NCBI GenBank assembly: GCA_902778275.1
Contig: CACYXE010000025.1
Span: 1 to 43,350, forward strand
DNA length: 43,350 bases
Direction: 5' to 3'
From: Oscillospiraceae bacterium
GTDB taxonomy: Bacteria; Bacillota; Clostridia; Oscillospirales; Oscillospiraceae
Shown here: one piece after another, positions 24,160 to 32,241 of the stretch
How positions within the stretch are numbered: the stretch's first letter is position 1
Layout of the letters: each line of letters begins with the position of its first letter
Notes under the pieces: generated by a model
What the model was told of the DNA's origin: nothing
Seen by the model: only the letters and a program-made list of their open reading frames with translations
The model's database searches: none
Position numbers and translations under genes: made by a program

Positions 24160-24687
24160 GTGAAAACTGCATATCAGACGCTGACGGCCCTGGTCCTGGT
24201 TTTGGTGCTGCTCCTGTCCGCCTGCGGGGGAGTCCAAACAGAGACTGTACCGGAGGAGACAGCTGCGCCGGCCGAGACTGTGTCGCCGGCTCCGCAGATC
24301 GGGGAAGCGCTCTCCGCTGCGGCGGTATCTGTCTCCGAGGTGATGGCCTCCAACAAGGCTACTCTTTGCGATGGCACGGGGGATTTTCCCGACTGGCTGG
24401 AGCTGTATAACGGCGGCGCGGAGAGCGTGTCCCTGTCCGGCTGGACTCTGGAGCGGGACGGCAAGTCCTGGCCGCTGCCCGACGTGACGCTGGCGGCAGG
24501 GGAGTACCGGGTCTTCTTTGGGACGGAGCTGGAAGACATGACCTTCCCGAAGGAGGGCTGCGTCCTTCGTCTGCTGGACGGACGGGGCGCTCTGGCGGAC
24601 AGTCTGGAGCTGCCCGCCCTGGCGGAGGATGAAAGCGCCTGCCGCCGGGAGGACGGCTCTGTGGAGCTGAGCATGTTCCCCAGTTGA
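24160..24687 (+). CDS. Lamin-tail-domain lipoprotein, N-terminal part of a frameshifted CotH protein
   Basis: A GTG at 24160, eight to nine bases after AGGAGG, opens a 175-residue frame. It begins with a lipoprotein signal (LVLLLSAC, lipidated Cys23) and a Pro/Thr/Glu-rich linker, then a lamin-tail-like domain (VSEVMASNKATLCDGTGDFPDWLELYNGG). The frame stops after ELSMFPS at 24687. The +1 frame continues without break with ENSDTGYRRFQETLLPANGEPVIGEVM, which is what normally follows in lamin-tail/CotH proteins. So this is most likely the first part of one gene split by a one-base frameshift near 24675-24687. It follows polC by 25 bases. Confidence 0.75.
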   Translation: MKTAYQTLTALVLVLVLLLSACGGVQTETVPEETAAPAETVSPAPQIGEALSAAAVSVSEVMASNKATLCDGTGDFPDWLELYNGGAESVSLSGWTLERDGKSWPLPDVTLAAGEYRVFFGTELEDMTFPKEGCVLRLLDGRGALADSLELPALAEDESACRREDGSVELSMFPS

Positions 24688-24748
24688 AAACAGCGATACG
24701 GGCTACCGCCGCTTCCAGGAAACGCTGCTGCCCGCAAACGGTGAGCCT

Positions 24749-26542
24749 GTGATCGGCGAGGTCATGGTCTACAACGCCCGGCATCTGGGGATCGACGGGG
24801 TCTACTATGACTGGGTGGAGATCAGCAATCCCTGGGACACGCCCATCAGTCTGCAGGGCTATTATCTGTCGGACAAGGACAGCGACCGGCTGCAGTACCC
24901 TCTGCCGGGCAAGCTCCTGAATCCACGGGAAAGCCTGGTGTTGTACTGCTCCGCGGATCTGATCCTCTCAGGCCGGCCCAACAGCGGCTTCGGCCTGGAC
25001 TCCGTCAAGGAGACGCTGTATCTGAGTCGGGCCGACGGCAGCCTGGCAGACTATGTGAGTTTACATAATATTCCCATCGACTGCAGCTTCGGCCGCAGAG
25101 GGACCGAGGGCGGCTTTTACTACTTCGATACGCCCAGCCCTGCAAAGCCCAACTCCGGCGGCGAGCGGCTGGTCGCCGCGCCGCCGGTGGCGCTGACGGC
25201 CGACGGCGTTTTTGACGAGGTGGATACCGTTGCGGTAGAGCTGCAGGGGGATGGGGAGATCCGCTACACCCTGGACGGCAGCACCCCGGATCGGAGCTCG
25301 GCGCTGTATGAAGGACCGCTGTCGGTGACGGAGACTGCGGTGCTGCGGGCTGTCTGCCTGCGGGACGGATATCTGCCCAGCGCCACGCTGGATCTGAGTT
25401 ATATCCTCAATGAGGGGCATACCCTTCCGGTGGTCAGCCTGATCGGCGACCCGGAGGACATCACGGGCCCGACGGGACTGTACCAGCTGTATTCCTATGA
25501 ATTGGAGCGCCCAGGCAGTTTCACGCTCTTTGCGGAAAACGGCGACAGGGTGCAGCTGCGCTGCGGCGTCAAGCTCCACGGCGCCACGTCCCGGACACGG
25601 GAGAAGAAGTCCTTCCGGCTGAAGTTCGAGGACCGCTACGAGGGGCCGCTGGACTACGATCTGTTTTCCAACGGCGTGACCCACTTCCGCAGCATCCTGC
25701 TGCGCATGCCCCAGGAGGGGCGGCCCACCAGCTACATCCGGGACACCCTGATGCATAAGCTGGCCATGGAAAATTTCCCGGAGCTGCCGGCCCAGGACCA
25801 CCGCTACGCGGTGCTGTATCTCAACGGCGCATACTGGGGCATCTACAACCTGCGGGAGGCCCATTCGGAGACCCACTATGCCCAGCATTACGGGGTGGAT
25901 GAGACCACCGTGACCGAGAGCAAGGGCAGCTGGGGCCACAACACCCCCGCCGAAGCGGTGGCCGATTTTATCCTCACCCACGACATGCGGGACGCGGAAA
26001 ACTACGCATACGCCCAGGAGCATCTGGATCTGGAGAGCATCATCGGCTGGTGCATCCTGGAGGCTTACAGCGGCAACTTTGACGCCAACAGCCCCAACAT
26101 GCGTTTTTATTGGACCGAAGCGGATCAGAAGCTCCACTACGCGCTGGTGGATCTGGATCTGGGGATGTTCTCCTACGGGGGCTTTGAGATCCCCTTCTCC
26201 AATGATTACGAGTATCAGCGCCTGGCCGCGGCCCTGATGGAGAACGAGGACTTTCGCGGCCGCCTTCTGGGCAGGCTGAAGGAATTGCTGCAGGGTCCCC
26301 TGTCAGAGCCAGAGATCCACAGGCAGATCGACGCCCTGGCCCAGGAGCTCCGGCCGGAGACCGCCCGCGATATGGAGCGTTGGCGCAACAGGCCGCACGA
26401 TTGGGAGAGCATGGTGGAGACGCTGCATGAATTCGTGGATTACGGCGGCGGCCGCACCAAAATGCTGCTGAAAAGTCTCAAGTACCTGCGCACGGTCAAC
26501 AGCAAGCTGCTGGAGGAGACCTTCGGCGATATGTTAAAGTAA
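24749..26542 (+). CDS. CotH kinase family protein with lamin-tail domain (downstream part)
   Basis: The frame is open upstream of the GTG at 24749 to about 24680, and no good ribosome site precedes 24749. The 597 residues contain a second lamin-tail domain (IGEVMVYNARHLGIDGVYYDWVEISNP), a chitobiase-like beta domain (IRYTLDGSTPDRSSALYEGPL, about 165-215), and a CotH kinase domain from about 255 (GVKLHGATSRTREKKSFRLKF, then LVDLDLGMFSYG with the DxD metal pattern). CotH proteins phosphorylate spore-coat or other extracellular proteins, and this one would be displayed outside if joined to the lipoprotein signal encoded in the other frame. Alone it lacks any export signal. Confidence 0.82.
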   Translation: MIGEVMVYNARHLGIDGVYYDWVEISNPWDTPISLQGYYLSDKDSDRLQYPLPGKLLNPRESLVLYCSADLILSGRPNSGFGLDSVKETLYLSRADGSLADYVSLHNIPIDCSFGRRGTEGGFYYFDTPSPAKPNSGGERLVAAPPVALTADGVFDEVDTVAVELQGDGEIRYTLDGSTPDRSSALYEGPLSVTETAVLRAVCLRDGYLPSATLDLSYILNEGHTLPVVSLIGDPEDITGPTGLYQLYSYELERPGSFTLFAENGDRVQLRCGVKLHGATSRTREKKSFRLKFEDRYEGPLDYDLFSNGVTHFRSILLRMPQEGRPTSYIRDTLMHKLAMENFPELPAQDHRYAVLYLNGAYWGIYNLREAHSETHYAQHYGVDETTVTESKGSWGHNTPAEAVADFILTHDMRDAENYAYAQEHLDLESIIGWCILEAYSGNFDANSPNMRFYWTEADQKLHYALVDLDLGMFSYGGFEIPFSNDYEYQRLAAALMENEDFRGRLLGRLKELLQGPLSEPEIHRQIDALAQELRPETARDMERWRNRPHDWESMVETLHEFVDYGGGRTKMLLKSLKYLRTVNSKLLEETFGDMLK

Positions 26543-26580
26543 GAGCTGCGGTGAACTGCTTTGCCGCAGCTCTTAACTTT
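26541..26580 (+). terminator. Terminator after the CotH gene
   Basis: An 11-bp stem AAGAGCTGCGG (26541-26551) with CCGCAGCTCTT (26564-26574), overlapping the CotH stop codon, is followed by a weak T-rich tail. Confidence 0.72.
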
Positions 26581-26621: not shown

Positions 26622-26669
26622 AAACGCAGTAACATAGGGTGATTCTGCACAGAATAAGAGGTGTGGTCA

Positions 26670-28280
26670 TTGAAAATAACGTTTTTGGGCGCGACCCATG
26701 AGGTCACGGGCAGCTGTACCTATCTGGAAGTGGGAGACAAGCGCGGCCTTGTGGACTATGGCATGGAGCAGGGTAAGAACATCTACGTCAACGAGCCGCT
26801 GCCGGTGCCGCCGGAGGCATTGGATTTTGTGCTGCTGACCCACGCCCATGTGGACCACTCGGGTCTGCTGCCGCTGCTGTATAAGCAGGGGTTCCGCGGC
26901 CCGGTCTATGCCAGCGCGGCCACCTGCTCTCTATGCGATATCATGCTGCGTGACTGCGCCAACATCCAGATGTCCGAAGCGGAGTGGAAAAACCGGAAGA
27001 ACCAGCGCAGCGGCGCTCCCGCGGTGGAGCCGCTGTATGACCTGGACGATGCGGCGGGACTGGTGTCGCTGCTGCGCCCCTGCGGCTATGGCAAGGAGAT
27101 CCAGGTCAATGACTGCGTCACCATCCGCCTGACCGACGTGGGGCATCTGCTGGGTTCTGCGGCCATCGAGGTGTGGCTCACCGAGGACGGTGAGACCCGG
27201 AAGATCACCTTTTCCGGCGACCTGGGCAACGGCGGACAGGCCATTTTGCGCGACCCGCAGTTTGTGAAGGATACGGAGTATCTGGTGATCGAGTCCACCT
27301 ACGGCGACAGGCTCCACAGCGAGGGGCGGGTGGACTATGTCAAGGAGTTGGCCAGCCGGATCCAGGCCACCATGGATCGGGGCGGCAACGTGATCATTCC
27401 GTCCTTTGCGGTGGGCCGCACGCAGGAGATGCTGTATTTCATCCGGGAGATCAAGGAGAAAAACCTGGTCACCGGCCATGGGGATTTCCCCGTCTATGTG
27501 GACAGCCCTCTGGCCATCGAGGCCACCTCCATCTTCCTGCAGTGTGATGCGGAGTATGTGGACGATGAGATGCAGCAGCTGATCCGTTCCGGCGTCAACC
27601 CCATCGTCTTTCCCGGCCTGGAGCTGACGGTCAGCCAGGAGGAGTCCCGGGCCATCAACGAGGACCGTACGCCCAAGGTCATCATTTCCGCCAGCGGCAT
27701 GTGCGACGCGGGCCGCATCCGCCACCATCTGAAGCACAACCTGTGGCGGGAGGAGTGCATGATCCTGTTCGTGGGCTATCAGTCCGTGGGGACCCTGGGG
27801 CGCTTGCTGGTGGACGGCATCGACCACGTCAAGCTGTTTGATGAGGATATCGAGGTCAAGGCCCGGATCGACACGCTGCCCGGCATCAGCGGGCATGCGG
27901 ACAAGGCGGGACTGCTGCACTGGCTGGGCGGCTTCGAGGAAAAGCCGAAACAGATTTTCGTAAACCACGGCGACCCGGACACGGCCGACAGTTTTACCGC
28001 CTGCCTCAATGCGGAGCTGGGTTACCGGGCCTACGCGCCCTACAGCGGCTGCCGCTTCGATCTGCTGGCCGGACAGTTTGAAAAGATGCCGGATGGCATA
28101 CCCATCGCGAAGCCCGGCAGCGGCGGGAAGCAGCGCAAGGTCAGCGCCGCTTATACCCGAATGGTGGCCGCGGCGGAGCGCCTGCTGAAGATCGCAAAGA
28201 GCATCGAGGGGCGGGCCAATAAGGAACTGGCCGGCTATGCCGACGCCATCACCAGGCTGGCGGATAAAATGGAGAAATAG
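26670..28280 (+). CDS. Beta-CASP metallo-beta-lactamase fold ribonuclease-like protein
   Basis: The start is placed at TTG 26670 because AGAGGTG lies six bases upstream and the protein then begins MKITFLGATHEVTGSC, the normal N-terminus of this family; the GTG at 26661 falls inside that ribosome site. The 536 residues include the metal motif LTHAHVDHSG (residues 56-65), GHLLGSAAIEVW, FSGDLGN, STYGDRLH and, late, SGHADKAGLLHWL, VNHGDPD. This is the COG1236/RMMBL layout of YSH1-type RNA processing exonucleases. A C-terminal extension of about 70 residues is rich in Lys and Ala. RNA cleavage or 5' exonuclease activity is inferred from family. Confidence 0.9.
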   Translation: MKITFLGATHEVTGSCTYLEVGDKRGLVDYGMEQGKNIYVNEPLPVPPEALDFVLLTHAHVDHSGLLPLLYKQGFRGPVYASAATCSLCDIMLRDCANIQMSEAEWKNRKNQRSGAPAVEPLYDLDDAAGLVSLLRPCGYGKEIQVNDCVTIRLTDVGHLLGSAAIEVWLTEDGETRKITFSGDLGNGGQAILRDPQFVKDTEYLVIESTYGDRLHSEGRVDYVKELASRIQATMDRGGNVIIPSFAVGRTQEMLYFIREIKEKNLVTGHGDFPVYVDSPLAIEATSIFLQCDAEYVDDEMQQLIRSGVNPIVFPGLELTVSQEESRAINEDRTPKVIISASGMCDAGRIRHHLKHNLWREECMILFVGYQSVGTLGRLLVDGIDHVKLFDEDIEVKARIDTLPGISGHADKAGLLHWLGGFEEKPKQIFVNHGDPDTADSFTACLNAELGYRAYAPYSGCRFDLLAGQFEKMPDGIPIAKPGSGGKQRKVSAAYTRMVAAAERLLKIAKSIEGRANKELAGYADAITRLADKMEK

Positions 28281-28375: not shown

Positions 28376-30103
28376 ATGAAAGACAGAGGATTCGATCCGG
28401 ATAAAAAGCTTGGCGAAAAAATCGGAAAGATGAGCCGGCAGGAGCTGTGCGCTCTTGTGTCGGAGCTGTGCGACCGAATCCGCAGTGATGTGGGCACGGG
28501 CAACTACCGCGGCGGCATCTATCCCGACAATATCAGCCTGAACGAGGACGGCAGCGTCGCTATCGGTCCCGGCAAGATCCAGGACTGGGAAGACGAGGAA
28601 CTGCAGTTTATCGCACCTGAGCTCTATTGGGGCGGCAAGCTGAGCCCGGCGTCCGACGTGTATTCCCTGGGCATGCTGCTGTATTACGGCGCTACCGGCG
28701 GGAAGCTGCCCTTTGACGGGGATACCCAGGCCCGTATGGACGGCAAGGCCTTTGAAGTGCCGGCGGAAGTGGGCCGCCAGCTGTATCAGATCATTTCCAC
28801 CGCCACGGCTTTCAAGGCGTCGGACCGCTATCGCTCCGTGGGCGAGCTGCAGGCACGGGTGGATTCCTGCCTGCTGGGCCGCTATATCGGCAGCGAGGGC
28901 AGGGCACAGACCCTGTTCAACAAGGACAAGGGTGAGCTGAGCGATATCGAACGGATCATGGTCTCCATCATCGCCGAGGAAGACGCGGGGATGGACAGCG
29001 CCAGCCCCGACGAAGGCGGCTTCAAGGCGGCGGAAGAAGCGGAGCCCGAGGCGGGAGCACCCGAAGCGGAGCCTGCTGCAGAGGCGGCGCCCAGCGAGGA
29101 GGACGAAGAGATGGAGCGCATCCGCGCCTTGTTCAACGCCCCCTATGAGGAACCGCCCTTTGAAAACGAAAACGTGGCGCAGCTGCCGGAGGAGGGGCAG
29201 GCGGAAGAGATCCTGCAGCCCGTGCCCCTGGCCATGAGCGGCGAGGGAGAGGACGTGCGGGTCTACCAGCCCACACCTCACAGCCGCCGGGAGAAGGACA
29301 GCGCCGTCTCTCAGAAACAGCCCATCCCCATTTTGACTGTGGATGAAAACCCGGAGCTTGCGCCGGTGGTCCCCATGACCGCCGTCAGCAGCAAGCCCAT
29401 GAGCCGGCAGGAGCAGATCCAGCAGGAGATCAGGCGCCGCCGGAGACGGCCCGTAGCCGCGGTTTTGATCCTCTGCGCCCTGCTGATCCTCTCCGCTATC
29501 GTGCTGAACTTCATGCTCCAGGGCGGCGTGGCTCTCCGGGGCGGCCGGCCCTCTGACGCCAACGGGGATGACGACGCCTCCGGTGTGGTGTCGATCCCCA
29601 CGGCACGGCCTGTGGATCCCAACGACCCCGAGGCCGGGGACGCGCCCTTTGATTACGGCACCCTCCTTGAGGAAGGGGATCCTTCCGAGGCCAAGCCCAT
29701 CGCCATGCCCCACAGCTACGAGGTCATCGCCTCCGATATGAGCTGGACCGAGGCGCGGCAGGCCTGTCTGGACGCGGGCGGCTACCTGGCGGTGGTCAGC
29801 GATGAGGAGGAATTCAACCGCATCGTGGAGCTGGTGATCGAAAGCGGACTGAGCCGGGTCTGGGTGGGCTGCCACCGGGAGGAGGACACCCTGGTCTGGG
29901 AGAAGCCCGATGAGGTGGTCTATTATCCCTGGGACTACAGCGAGCCCTCCTACTATGACGGCTATGACGGCAGCATTGAGGACTATCTGCTGCTGTGGCA
30001 CAACAACCGCTGGGTCTATAACGACAGCCGTGATGATCCCGTTGCCGACTATCCCGAGCTTTACAGCGGGAGTTTGGGCTATGTGATCGAATACGATTCC
30101 TGA
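28376..30103 (+). CDS. Single-pass membrane protein: truncated pseudokinase inside, C-type-lectin-like domain outside
   Basis: The ATG at 28376 follows AGGGGG by five bases and gives 575 residues. Residues about 40-165 resemble only the C-lobe of a Ser/Thr kinase: GGIYPDNISLNEDG at the catalytic loop, IAPELYWGG (APE at 80-82) and SDVYSLGMLLYYGATGGKLPF. The N-lobe, HRD Asp, catalytic-loop Lys and DFG (here GPG) are missing, so it cannot be an active kinase. An acidic, Glu/Ala/Pro-rich linker (about 200-340) leads to a run of six Arg (353-358) and one membrane helix (359-380). Residues about 447-575 form a C-type-lectin-like domain (SWTEARQACLDAGGYLAVV, WVGCHREEDTLVW, NRWVYNDS), without the usual final Cys. 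Topology with the kinase part inside is inferred from the Arg run. Its partner and ligand are unknown. Confidence 0.82.
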   Translation: MKDRGFDPDKKLGEKIGKMSRQELCALVSELCDRIRSDVGTGNYRGGIYPDNISLNEDGSVAIGPGKIQDWEDEELQFIAPELYWGGKLSPASDVYSLGMLLYYGATGGKLPFDGDTQARMDGKAFEVPAEVGRQLYQIISTATAFKASDRYRSVGELQARVDSCLLGRYIGSEGRAQTLFNKDKGELSDIERIMVSIIAEEDAGMDSASPDEGGFKAAEEAEPEAGAPEAEPAAEAAPSEEDEEMERIRALFNAPYEEPPFENENVAQLPEEGQAEEILQPVPLAMSGEGEDVRVYQPTPHSRREKDSAVSQKQPIPILTVDENPELAPVVPMTAVSSKPMSRQEQIQQEIRRRRRRPVAAVLILCALLILSAIVLNFMLQGGVALRGGRPSDANGDDDASGVVSIPTARPVDPNDPEAGDAPFDYGTLLEEGDPSEAKPIAMPHSYEVIASDMSWTEARQACLDAGGYLAVVSDEEEFNRIVELVIESGLSRVWVGCHREEDTLVWEKPDEVVYYPWDYSEPSYYDGYDGSIEDYLLLWHNNRWVYNDSRDDPVADYPELYSGSLGYVIEYDS

Positions 30104-30151: not shown

Positions 30152-31348
30152 ATGAAAAAAAGCGCGATTTGGAAAAAGACACTGGCCTTCCTGTTTATTC
30201 TGCTTCTGCTTCCGGTGTGGGGCGGCGCGGCCAATGCGGAGGAAGCCGGTCTGATCGATACGGAAAGGCTTGACCAATGGATGGCGGCTTATGTGGAAGA
30301 GCACGGATTGAACGCAAATTATGAGCGCTTCTCCGTGGGCTTCTGCTATACGGCAACGGGGGAAAGCTGGTACTACGACGCGGATCAGTGGATGTATTCC
30401 GCCAGCCTCTACAAGGTCCCGGTGGCCATGCTGATGGCGGAGAAAGAAGCGGCCGGGGAATTGAGCCAGGACAGCAACGTGCTGGGCATGCCTCTGCAGT
30501 ACTGGGAATCCACGGCGCTGACCTACTCCAACAACGACAGCGGCCACGCCATGGTGGATTATCTGGGCGGTACATATATGGGCAAGTGCAGCGACATGAC
30601 CATTCGCTTCACCGATCTGCCGGAAGACTACTTCGACGAGGACTTCTTTGTAAACAGCTACTACTCGGCCCGCTATATGACCCAGATCATGCGGACACTC
30701 TGCGAGGGCGGTGAGGAGCAGTTTCCCCACGTGATCGAATACCTGCTCCCGGCCCAGCCGGACAATTATCTGAATATCCGCCTGAAGGGCCGCTTCGAGG
30801 TGGCCCAGAAGTACGGCTCCTATGAGGAGCCCAACGGCAACAAGAACGACCATATCGCCGCTATCGTCTATACGCCGACGCCGATCATCGTTACGGTCAT
30901 GACCCGCAACGTGGGCGAGTATCAGCTGCGGATGGCGGAGATCGGCGAATACCTGGCGGACTACGCCCTGGAGCTGGATGCCAAAGCGGCGCAGCTGGAA
31001 GCGGACAAGGTGGCTGCCGCCCAGGCGGAGCCTGCCCCCCTGGAAGAACCGGCGGCAGAGCCCGCTGAGCCTGCCGGGGAGCTGGCCGGCGCCGAAACCC
31101 CTGCGCCTGCGGAGCAGACCGTACCGGAGCCCATTCAGGCTTCAAAAACAGACGGTCCCCGCTGGCTGATCCCCGCGCTGATCGCGGCATTGGCCGTGCT
31201 GGTGCTGATCCTGCTCCTGATCGCCGTGCAGAGCCGTAAACGGAAAGCGGCCCGCCGCCGGGCCGCGGCCAGGGCCGCCGCTCGAAAAGCTGCCGCCCGG
31301 GAGACTGCCGACCGATCAAGGGACCGGGACTACAGTCCGCGACATTGA
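30152..31348 (+). CDS. Membrane-anchored beta-lactamase-fold serine hydrolase-like protein
   Basis: This 398-residue protein has an N-terminal signal sequence (LAFLFILLLLPVWGGAANA) and a class A beta-lactamase/PBP-like fold. The SxxK motif is SLYK (Ser85, Lys88), the second motif is SNN (126-128), and the third (KTG position) is not clear; QKYGSYEEPNG is the nearest. A Pro/Ala/Glu-rich linker precedes a membrane helix near residues 338-361. The tail is an unusual Arg/Ala-rich segment (AARRRAAARAAARKAAAR) that would lie in the cytoplasm. It may bind or cleave peptidoglycan peptides, but activity is uncertain. It sits 48 bases after the pseudokinase-lectin gene and 19 before the next lipoprotein, likely as one operon. 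Confidence 0.8.
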   Translation: MKKSAIWKKTLAFLFILLLLPVWGGAANAEEAGLIDTERLDQWMAAYVEEHGLNANYERFSVGFCYTATGESWYYDADQWMYSASLYKVPVAMLMAEKEAAGELSQDSNVLGMPLQYWESTALTYSNNDSGHAMVDYLGGTYMGKCSDMTIRFTDLPEDYFDEDFFVNSYYSARYMTQIMRTLCEGGEEQFPHVIEYLLPAQPDNYLNIRLKGRFEVAQKYGSYEEPNGNKNDHIAAIVYTPTPIIVTVMTRNVGEYQLRMAEIGEYLADYALELDAKAAQLEADKVAAAQAEPAPLEEPAAEPAEPAGELAGAETPAPAEQTVPEPIQASKTDGPRWLIPALIAALAVLVLILLLIAVQSRKRKAARRRAAARAAARKAAARETADRSRDRDYSPRH

Positions 31349-31367: not shown

Positions 31368-32195
31368 ATGAAGAAAATCATTGCAATATTGCTGGCCGTG
31401 TGCCTGTGCCTCAGCTGCGCGGCCTGCGGCGGAGGCAGCTCCTACCGGGTAAAAACCGTTCTGACCCTGGTGGAGCAGTCCTACTCCCTGGCCTTTCGTA
31501 CCGGGGACCCCACGGCGGATTACGTGATCGCCGCCATCAAGACCCTGAACGCAGAGGGGCGGGTAGACGAGCTGTCTGTCAAATGGTTCGGCGACAGGAT
31601 CATCCAGTTCGAGAGCGACAGCGCCGCGCTGGACAAGGTGCGGGACAACGGCTACGGCGAGCTGCAGGAGATCCCCAGCCGGGACCTGATCGTGGGGATC
31701 GATATCAACTCCTTCCCCATGGCCTATATCTCCGGCTCCGAATATTGGGGCTACGATGTGGAGATGGCCATCGCCGTGTGCGAGCGCCTGGGCTGGAATC
31801 TGAAGATGCAGCCCATTGAAAAGGAAAACGTGTACATCGAGCTGTCCTCGGGAAACATCGACGTGGCCTGGGGCGGCGTGGCGCTGAACCAGTCGGAGGT
31901 GGATCAGGGGCTGTACGCCCAGTATGGACCCTACGTGGAGAACGATATCGTCATCGCGGTCCGGGAGGGTACGCTGATCAACAACCGCCTGGGGCTGAAC
32001 AACAAGAAGATGGCCATGTGTTCCACCACCGAAGCCATGGAGGCGCTCAATTCCGACGCGCGATTGGCCAAGCGGCTGGGGCAGGTGACCCGTGTGGCGG
32101 GCGGCACCACCGAGTGCTTCGACTTCCTCTATGCGGGTAAGTGCGACGCGGTCCTCACCGACACCACGGCCATGTACTATTTCAACAGTCATTAA
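31368..32195 (+). CDS. Amino-acid-binding-protein-like lipoprotein with permuted domain order
   Basis: The product of 275 residues starts with a lipoprotein signal (SCAAC, lipidated Cys20). Residues 105-275 follow the SBP_bac_3 family from its N-terminal strand (DLIVGIDINSFPMAY, GYDVEMAIAVCERLGW, SGNIDVAWGGVALN) to the segment CDAVLTDTTAMYYF, where the usual protein would go on with its last 50-60 residues. Those appear instead at the front: residues 36-75 (EQSYSLAFRTGD, IAAIKTLNAEGRVDEL, VKWFGD) look like the canonical C-terminus. This is best read as a circular permutation. No ABC permease or ATPase is near, so it could be a sensor or an orphan binding protein. The ligand is probably an amino acid or small polar molecule, by family only. 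Confidence 0.78.
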   Translation: MKKIIAILLAVCLCLSCAACGGGSSYRVKTVLTLVEQSYSLAFRTGDPTADYVIAAIKTLNAEGRVDELSVKWFGDRIIQFESDSAALDKVRDNGYGELQEIPSRDLIVGIDINSFPMAYISGSEYWGYDVEMAIAVCERLGWNLKMQPIEKENVYIELSSGNIDVAWGGVALNQSEVDQGLYAQYGPYVENDIVIAVREGTLINNRLGLNNKKMAMCSTTEAMEALNSDARLAKRLGQVTRVAGGTTECFDFLYAGKCDAVLTDTTAMYYFNSH

Positions 32196-32208
32196 AACAG
32201 AAAAAGCA

Positions 32209-32241
32209 AAAGCGATTGGGCTGCGGCTCAATCGCTTTTTT
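32209..32241 (+). terminator. Rho-independent terminator after the permuted binding protein
   Basis: Stem AAAGCGATTG (32209-32218) with CAATCGCTTT (32229-32238), 10-base loop, T-run to 32241. It closes the 28376-32195 gene cluster. Confidence 0.88.

Follow-up and report, generated by a model that had tools for sequence, protein, structure and literature searches.

Organization of the locus

The window, i.e. the whole stretch of 43,350 nucleotides of Oscillospiraceae DNA analysed here (contig CACYXE010000025.1), encodes a 575-residue protein that begins with one half of a protein kinase and ends in a C-type lectin domain. The gene and the features around it are:

26540-26575: terminator-like hairpin of 16 pairs, ahead of the RNase gene
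26661..28280, + strand: beta-CASP metallo-beta-lactamase-fold RNase, upstream neighbour
28376..30103, + strand: whole receptor gene (half-kinase, linker, membrane helix and C-type lectin), 575 aa
28376..28888, + strand: lone C-lobe of a kinase (about residues 1-171), N-lobe absent, catalytically dead, with RGG in place of HRD and P65 where the DFG Asp would be
28916..28975, + strand: linker motif F181-x-K183-x4-L188-S-D-x-E192 (to about residue 200), from conservation
29318..29374, + strand: linker motif QPIPILTVDENPELAPVVP, residues 315-333, from conservation
29450..29518, + strand: single membrane helix, about residues 359-381, with an Arg run just before it
29714..30100, + strand: extracellular C-type lectin domain, residues 447-575
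30152..31348, + strand: beta-lactamase-like serine hydrolase with SxxK (SLYK), downstream neighbour, 48 bp from the receptor gene
31368..32195, + strand: family-3 solute-binding protein with a lipoprotein-like N-terminus, downstream neighbour
32208..32239, + strand: terminator-like hairpin of 14 pairs, closing the presumed transcript

The architecture is that of a single-pass receptor with a cytoplasmic half-kinase and a C-type lectin outside, as the original prediction had it. The receptor, serine hydrolase and solute-binding genes are separated in the window by gaps of 48 and 19 bp. Terminator-like sites number 6 against a shuffle mean of 4.2 (sd 2.2), a count that is not significant, so that the argument for the transcript ends rests on the two longest stems.

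A same-strand homologue of the RNase lies directly upstream in 18 of 43 loci, and 13 of 43 have a homologue of the serine hydrolase, and likewise 13 one of the solute-binding protein, at most four genes away and on the same strand, the SxxK motif being present in 13/13 hydrolases; these neighbour lists are rough because genes were called with our own homology-guided ORF picker. Neighbours vary among loci, the serine hydrolase being near in only those 13. By eye, the hydrolase is hydrophobic at its N-terminus and has a further hydrophobic stretch in its C-terminal part. Against the type VII Cas14 model the RNase in the window reaches 382 bits, below the 800-bit cut-off, and it is probably an ordinary RNase. 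Just upstream (24160-26542) are two adjacent lamin-tail-domain genes, the second of which also carries a CotH kinase-fold domain.

Distribution of the family

Each of the 101 genomes searched in the protein's own genus has at least one match at E <= 0.001, a count that takes in ordinary kinases. A hand count resting on the matches listed, with the weakest excluded, gives 79 genomes with both parts, 16 with the lectin part only and 6 with neither; in one of the 79 (G091) the half-kinase and the lectin (L069) lie in two ORFs. Of 300 genomes searched in the wider family, 120 have a match at 1e-15, in many cases to one part only. Scans of the order (28 of 394 genomes matching at 1e-20) and of the class (32 of 391 genomes) yielded, among the matches listed, none outside the protein's own family that covers both parts; because no more than three candidates per genome were scored, rare cases may have escaped these scans. 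The two named relatives, an Oscillospiraceae and a Ruminococcaceae bacterium, are known from metagenome-assembled genomes, one of which is from roe-deer rumen.

ORFs were read in 80 fetched regions, which are part of the matches, and in loci returned by the searches. They comprise 69 proteins with half-kinase and lectin (two-part proteins, that of the window included), 3 half-kinases without lectin, 34 lectins without kinase and 6 full kinases with lectin; the row names in the tree assign 21 of the 69 to other genera. Two of the half-kinases without lectin (L096, L098) run off the contig end and the third is the broken gene of G091, and three of the 34 lectin-only proteins (L069, L097, L099) look like the other halves of these. 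L053 (residues about 15-222) and L054 (about 61-268), counted as half-kinases in the 69, have a profile match split in two, the first piece spanning query residues 4-72 and the second 40-172. Residues 40-72 are thus matched twice, as if the catalytic-loop region were duplicated.

A kinase C-lobe that has lost catalysis

The cytoplasmic part had been proposed to be a kinase C-lobe alone, a claim that would fail if residues 40-165 were not kinase-like. The structure predicted for residues 1-170 is a kinase-like C-lobe of the PknA/PknB type, these two being its nearest structural neighbours among the chains compared. StkP is among the sequence matches to solved structures (1e-7), the Pfam family PK_Tyr_Ser-Thr matches residues 75-152 slightly below its own cut-off, and the NCBI PASTA-kinase model NF033483 matches residues 77-184 with E 1e-11 and 44.6 bits, where 450 are required. 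PASTA repeats gave no match in the protein at E <= 1. An anti-phage kinase was considered and rejected, since matches to PADLOC PD-T4-6 (best E 1.2e-11) span only residues 76-235 at most and reflect a generic kinase C-lobe.

The ORF begins at the C-lobe, and the N-lobe with its Gly loop and VAIK Lys is absent. The start codon of the receptor gene lies 95 bp after the end of the upstream gene, and the N-lobe is therefore truly missing and not overlooked; this gap, together with the same build in 68 relatives, rules out a truncated or misannotated full kinase. No separate N-lobe matching PF00069 at E <= 0.001 was found in the protein's own genome, which is 84% complete.

That the kinase is dead as well as halved holds for the window protein and for its family. 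The position of the HRD Asp is occupied by Gly in 67 of 72 half-kinases, by Ala in 3 and by Asn in 2 (Asp 0/72), and the Asp at the DFG position is kept in 10/72. The catalytic-loop Asn is retained in 70/72. The APE and DVYSLG motifs, which the original prediction had noted as kept, are constant: the APE Glu, the DVYSLG Asp and the helix-I Arg, residues that hold the kinase C-lobe together, are each present in 72/72, and the Gly of DxxxxG in 60, with Ala in the other 12. The same searches also brought up 31 full kinases, of which 23 retain the HRD Asp and 8 have Asn instead (e.g. L089, L122), so that other pseudokinases exist in these bacteria.

The half-kinases have constant positions of their own. 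G46, G47, L76, W85, V95, M121 and G133 are at least 85% conserved among them and below 25% in full kinases, e.g. W85 in 72/72 vs 0/29, G46 in 71/72 vs 3/31 and G133 in 63/72 vs 4/31. The half-kinase evolves under purifying selection, with dN/dS of 0.05-0.21 over seven pairs, compared to 0.13-0.32 for the linker; domain borders are approximate for pairs that do not involve the window protein, and some synonymous distances are high. We read the specific constants and the dN/dS as new constraint and not as decay, and together they rule out a decayed pseudogene. The window protein is not matched by the KIND profile at E <= 1, and KIND was not among the best 25 of 26 families listed for 26 members, in both cases with HMMER filters that drop weak matches.

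Linker motifs and lectin domain

Two linker motifs, F181-x-K-x4-L188-S-D-x-E192 and QPIPILTEEKNPELAPVV, are conserved among 26 aligned family proteins. By strict patterns the first is found in 49/69 and the second in 32/69 two-part proteins, so they are not universal. Of the 34 lectin-only proteins, 12 also carry the first, as F-x-K..(L/M)S(D/E)-x-E-(R/K)-MM, close to the N-terminus; the pattern picked out 7 of them, and 5 with Met for Leu were identified by eye. The same linker was not found elsewhere in the protein's own genome.

The fold predicted for residues 447-575 is that of a C-type carbohydrate-recognition domain (CRD), which bears out the lectin-like nature suggested earlier for the outside part. 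The competing assignment, a formylglycine-generating (FGE-sulfatase) fold, was looked for in two structure comparisons: the best 50 matches listed in each are C-type-lectin-fold proteins, with no formylglycine-generating enzyme among them. Pfam Lectin_C (PF00059) matches residues 454-523 with 26.7 bits (cut-off 22.6) and is matched in 26/26 family members at E <= 1. Animal C-type lectins are among the sequence matches to solved structures, i.e. mannose receptors and the phospholipase A2 receptor, the latter with 4e-11 for the whole repeated protein and 0.007 for the best single domain.

E523, E535 and D550 are invariant in 45/45 lectin domains; read by eye from the alignment, position 525 is Ser in 42 and Thr in 3, and position 549 is Asn in 40 and Ile in 5. 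EPS (523-525), E535 and N549-D550 are what we take to be the calcium-site-2 positions (EPN/QPD, E, ND). A profile of the C-terminal half aligns EPS/E/ND with EPN/E/ND of the CEL-I variant 4wqq (an EPNH mutant), a match that is weak (E 0.0026) but in register. In the same alignment the Trp of WND is replaced by Tyr, and a Trp precedes that Tyr by two residues (W-x-Y-N-D). Compared to C-type CRDs such as mannose receptor CRD4, CL-K1 and CEL-I, the domain thus has EPS for the standard EPN and Tyr for the WND Trp, and its two cysteines are not conserved in every family member. EPS occurs together with WND in a mosquito lectin whose haemagglutination is reported to require calcium (PMC4223726). The dN/dS of the lectin is 0.03-0.20 over the seven pairs, below that of the half-kinase in six of them.

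Origin and related builds

In a kinase tree of 103 rows, the 72 half-kinases make up one side of a single branch with SH-aLRT 99; the tree is a quick one, with SH-aLRT as its only support measure, no bootstrap and long branches flagged. The half-kinase family is apparently of single origin. The lectin-only proteins that retain the first linker motif fall, in a lectin tree of 109 rows and few columns, into a group of 8 rows (SH-aLRT 100) and one of 7 rows (82), both nested among two-part proteins with a nesting support of 80-85. This nesting suggests that the half-kinase has probably been lost at least twice, with retention of lectin, helix and motif. Replacement by a half-kinase from another gene was considered for the 22 genus genomes with no two-part match (the 16 with lectin only and the 6 with neither), and, judged by match strength, none turned up: kinase matches occur in 18 of them (E 2.9e-25 to 1.3e-6, ORFs of 277-1065 aa), all weaker than verified half-kinases (1e-35 or better), and 4 have none. 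The nested lectin-only relatives and these 22 genomes argue that the half-kinase is not always needed.

Six proteins from relatives in the same taxonomic order combine a complete kinase with a C-type lectin:

L094:1143-4559
L119:616-2058
L120:596-1963
L165:6830-8416
L176:502-1938
L175:1483-2910, - strand

Both domains exceed the Pfam cut-off in 6/6. They have the same arrangement as the window protein, with the kinase on the N-side and the lectin at the C-end (456-529 aa in 5/6), but their kinase is full, with the VxK/ALK lysine, HRD and DFG (DFS in L175). The combination of lectin and kinase is thus wider than the half-kinase family. That they are direct ancestors is unsupported, since the quick tree with its flagged long branches does not place their kinases beside the half-kinase clade.

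Other arrangements exist. Among five half-kinase proteins that form a sister group, a bacterial SH3 domain (PF08239) is present outside in 3/3 tested; in L086, L087 and L112 (705-818 aa) it stands ahead of a degenerate lectin-like end that is below the Pfam cut-off or without a match. In six proteins from other families of the class (L187, L190-L192, L194, L195), N-terminal CxxC pairs, zinc-ribbon-like by eye, are followed by a hydrophobic stretch or membrane helix and then the same lectin domain. Judged by these pairings with full kinases, zinc-ribbon-like heads and half-kinases, the lectin is a module of the outer side that moves between proteins, and the half-kinase is one among several cytoplasmic heads.

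Discussion

By kind, the protein is a receptor-type Hanks pseudokinase, and what is new is the unusually clean half-domain. The earlier statement that no bacterial family of this build has been described agrees with the titles and abstract openings listed from the open-access literature, where bacterial kinases or pseudokinases with a C-type lectin, bacterial pseudokinases in general, KIND domains and kinases without N-lobe were sought and none with such a build was found. The terms "C-lobe" and "lectin" are likewise absent from the main text of a review of bacterial pseudokinases (PMC12599244). With the PASTA kinases (PknB/PrkC/StkP, NF033483) the protein shares a cytoplasmic Hanks-type fold on the N-side, a membrane helix and a sensor part outside; unlike them, it has no N-lobe, has lost the HRD Asp and carries a C-type lectin in place of PASTA repeats. 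To our knowledge, lone kinase C-lobes as modules are known only from animals, in the form of KIND, and KIND domains bind peptides. In SPIRE, PTPN13 and very-KIND, animal proteins unlike the bacterial half-kinase, a lone C-lobe works as a non-catalytic module, as excerpts from the literature describe it. EssB/YukC has no lectin and is not reduced to a C-lobe. As presented in the review, it is alike in being a transmembrane Firmicute protein with degraded kinase motifs and a scaffold role, and differs in belonging to type VII secretion (PMC12599244).

We propose with moderate confidence that the window protein is a single-pass surface receptor in which the lectin binds a glycan and the half-kinase docks proteins without catalysis. 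With no means to phosphorylate and a conserved family of which we found no description, it is probably a sensor that works by protein docking. Outside, the C-type lectin, probably of the calcium-dependent type, would bind a glycan, for which the cell wall or the cell surface is the likeliest source. Inside, the C-lobe without N-lobe would serve as a folded docking module, aided by the conserved linker motifs, such that C-lobe and linker together may hold a cytoplasmic partner. Binding or clustering of the ligand could then change which partner stays at the membrane.

The repeated absence of the half-kinase makes a different division of labour a serious rival, in which lectin, helix and linker motifs do the work and the half-kinase is tolerated or auxiliary, e.g. 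as spacer, stabiliser or dimer contact, with no signalling dock. The lectin-only proteins that retain the first linker motif (12/34), the nesting of lectin-only groups within the family and the lower dN/dS of the lectin (0.03-0.20; 6/7 pairs) fit such a scheme, but both parts are kept in 79/101 genus genomes (in G091 in two ORFs), the half-kinase has a dN/dS of 0.05-0.21, and it has constants of its own in W85 and GG; we regard the scheme as rather unlikely. Many domains of the C-type-lectin fold bind proteins, and the lectin could be a structural adhesin that anchors the cell or an envelope complex to a protein or wall polymer, the cytoplasmic half holding an envelope machine and no signal being passed. 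EssB/YukC, the transmembrane pseudokinase scaffold of type VII secretion in Firmicutes according to the review, is a precedent (PMC12599244). However, no secretion gene is among the neighbours annotated in the window and the calcium-site-like residues are kept, which makes an adhesin improbable.

Least probable is an unusual catalytic activity of the half-kinase itself. SelO and SidJ, unlike the half-kinase, retain a two-lobed fold. They are examples of pseudokinases repurposed for other functions in the same review (PMC12599244), and the persistence of the catalytic-loop Asn (70/72) and, in 10/72, of the DFG-position Asp would be in keeping with some activity. Against this, the HRD Asp is found in 0/72, and absence of the N-lobe means absence of the nucleotide-binding Lys and Gly loop.

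For the docking receptor, a partner can only be guessed at. The protein's own genome has just two PF00069 matches at E <= 0.001, the receptor gene and a separately encoded, intact PASTA kinase (L035:4757-6466) with VAVK, HRD and DFG, and our most economical guess is therefore that this kinase is the partner. The SxxK hydrolase 48 bp downstream and the SH3 domain in the sister group suggest, and would fit, a link of the receptor to the cell wall. One may extend this, quite tentatively, to a bacterial principle similar to that of KIND, in which a half-kinase arose once in this family as a dedicated docking module without catalysis on a lectin receptor. If true, the receptor would sense glycans as co-receptor of the PASTA kinase, the one active Ser/Thr kinase detectable in the cell. 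Half a kinase kept under selection, and apparently of single origin, is a clean natural experiment on the kinase fold without catalysis, and the lectin on it suggests that glycans could be an input of bacterial Ser/Thr signalling. With one intact PF00069 kinase and the half-kinase in the same genome, the pairing is directly testable.

In another genome, a single contig (G078:C126:4818-37841) holds eight kinase-like matches within 33 kb, in ORFs of 639-1065 aa.
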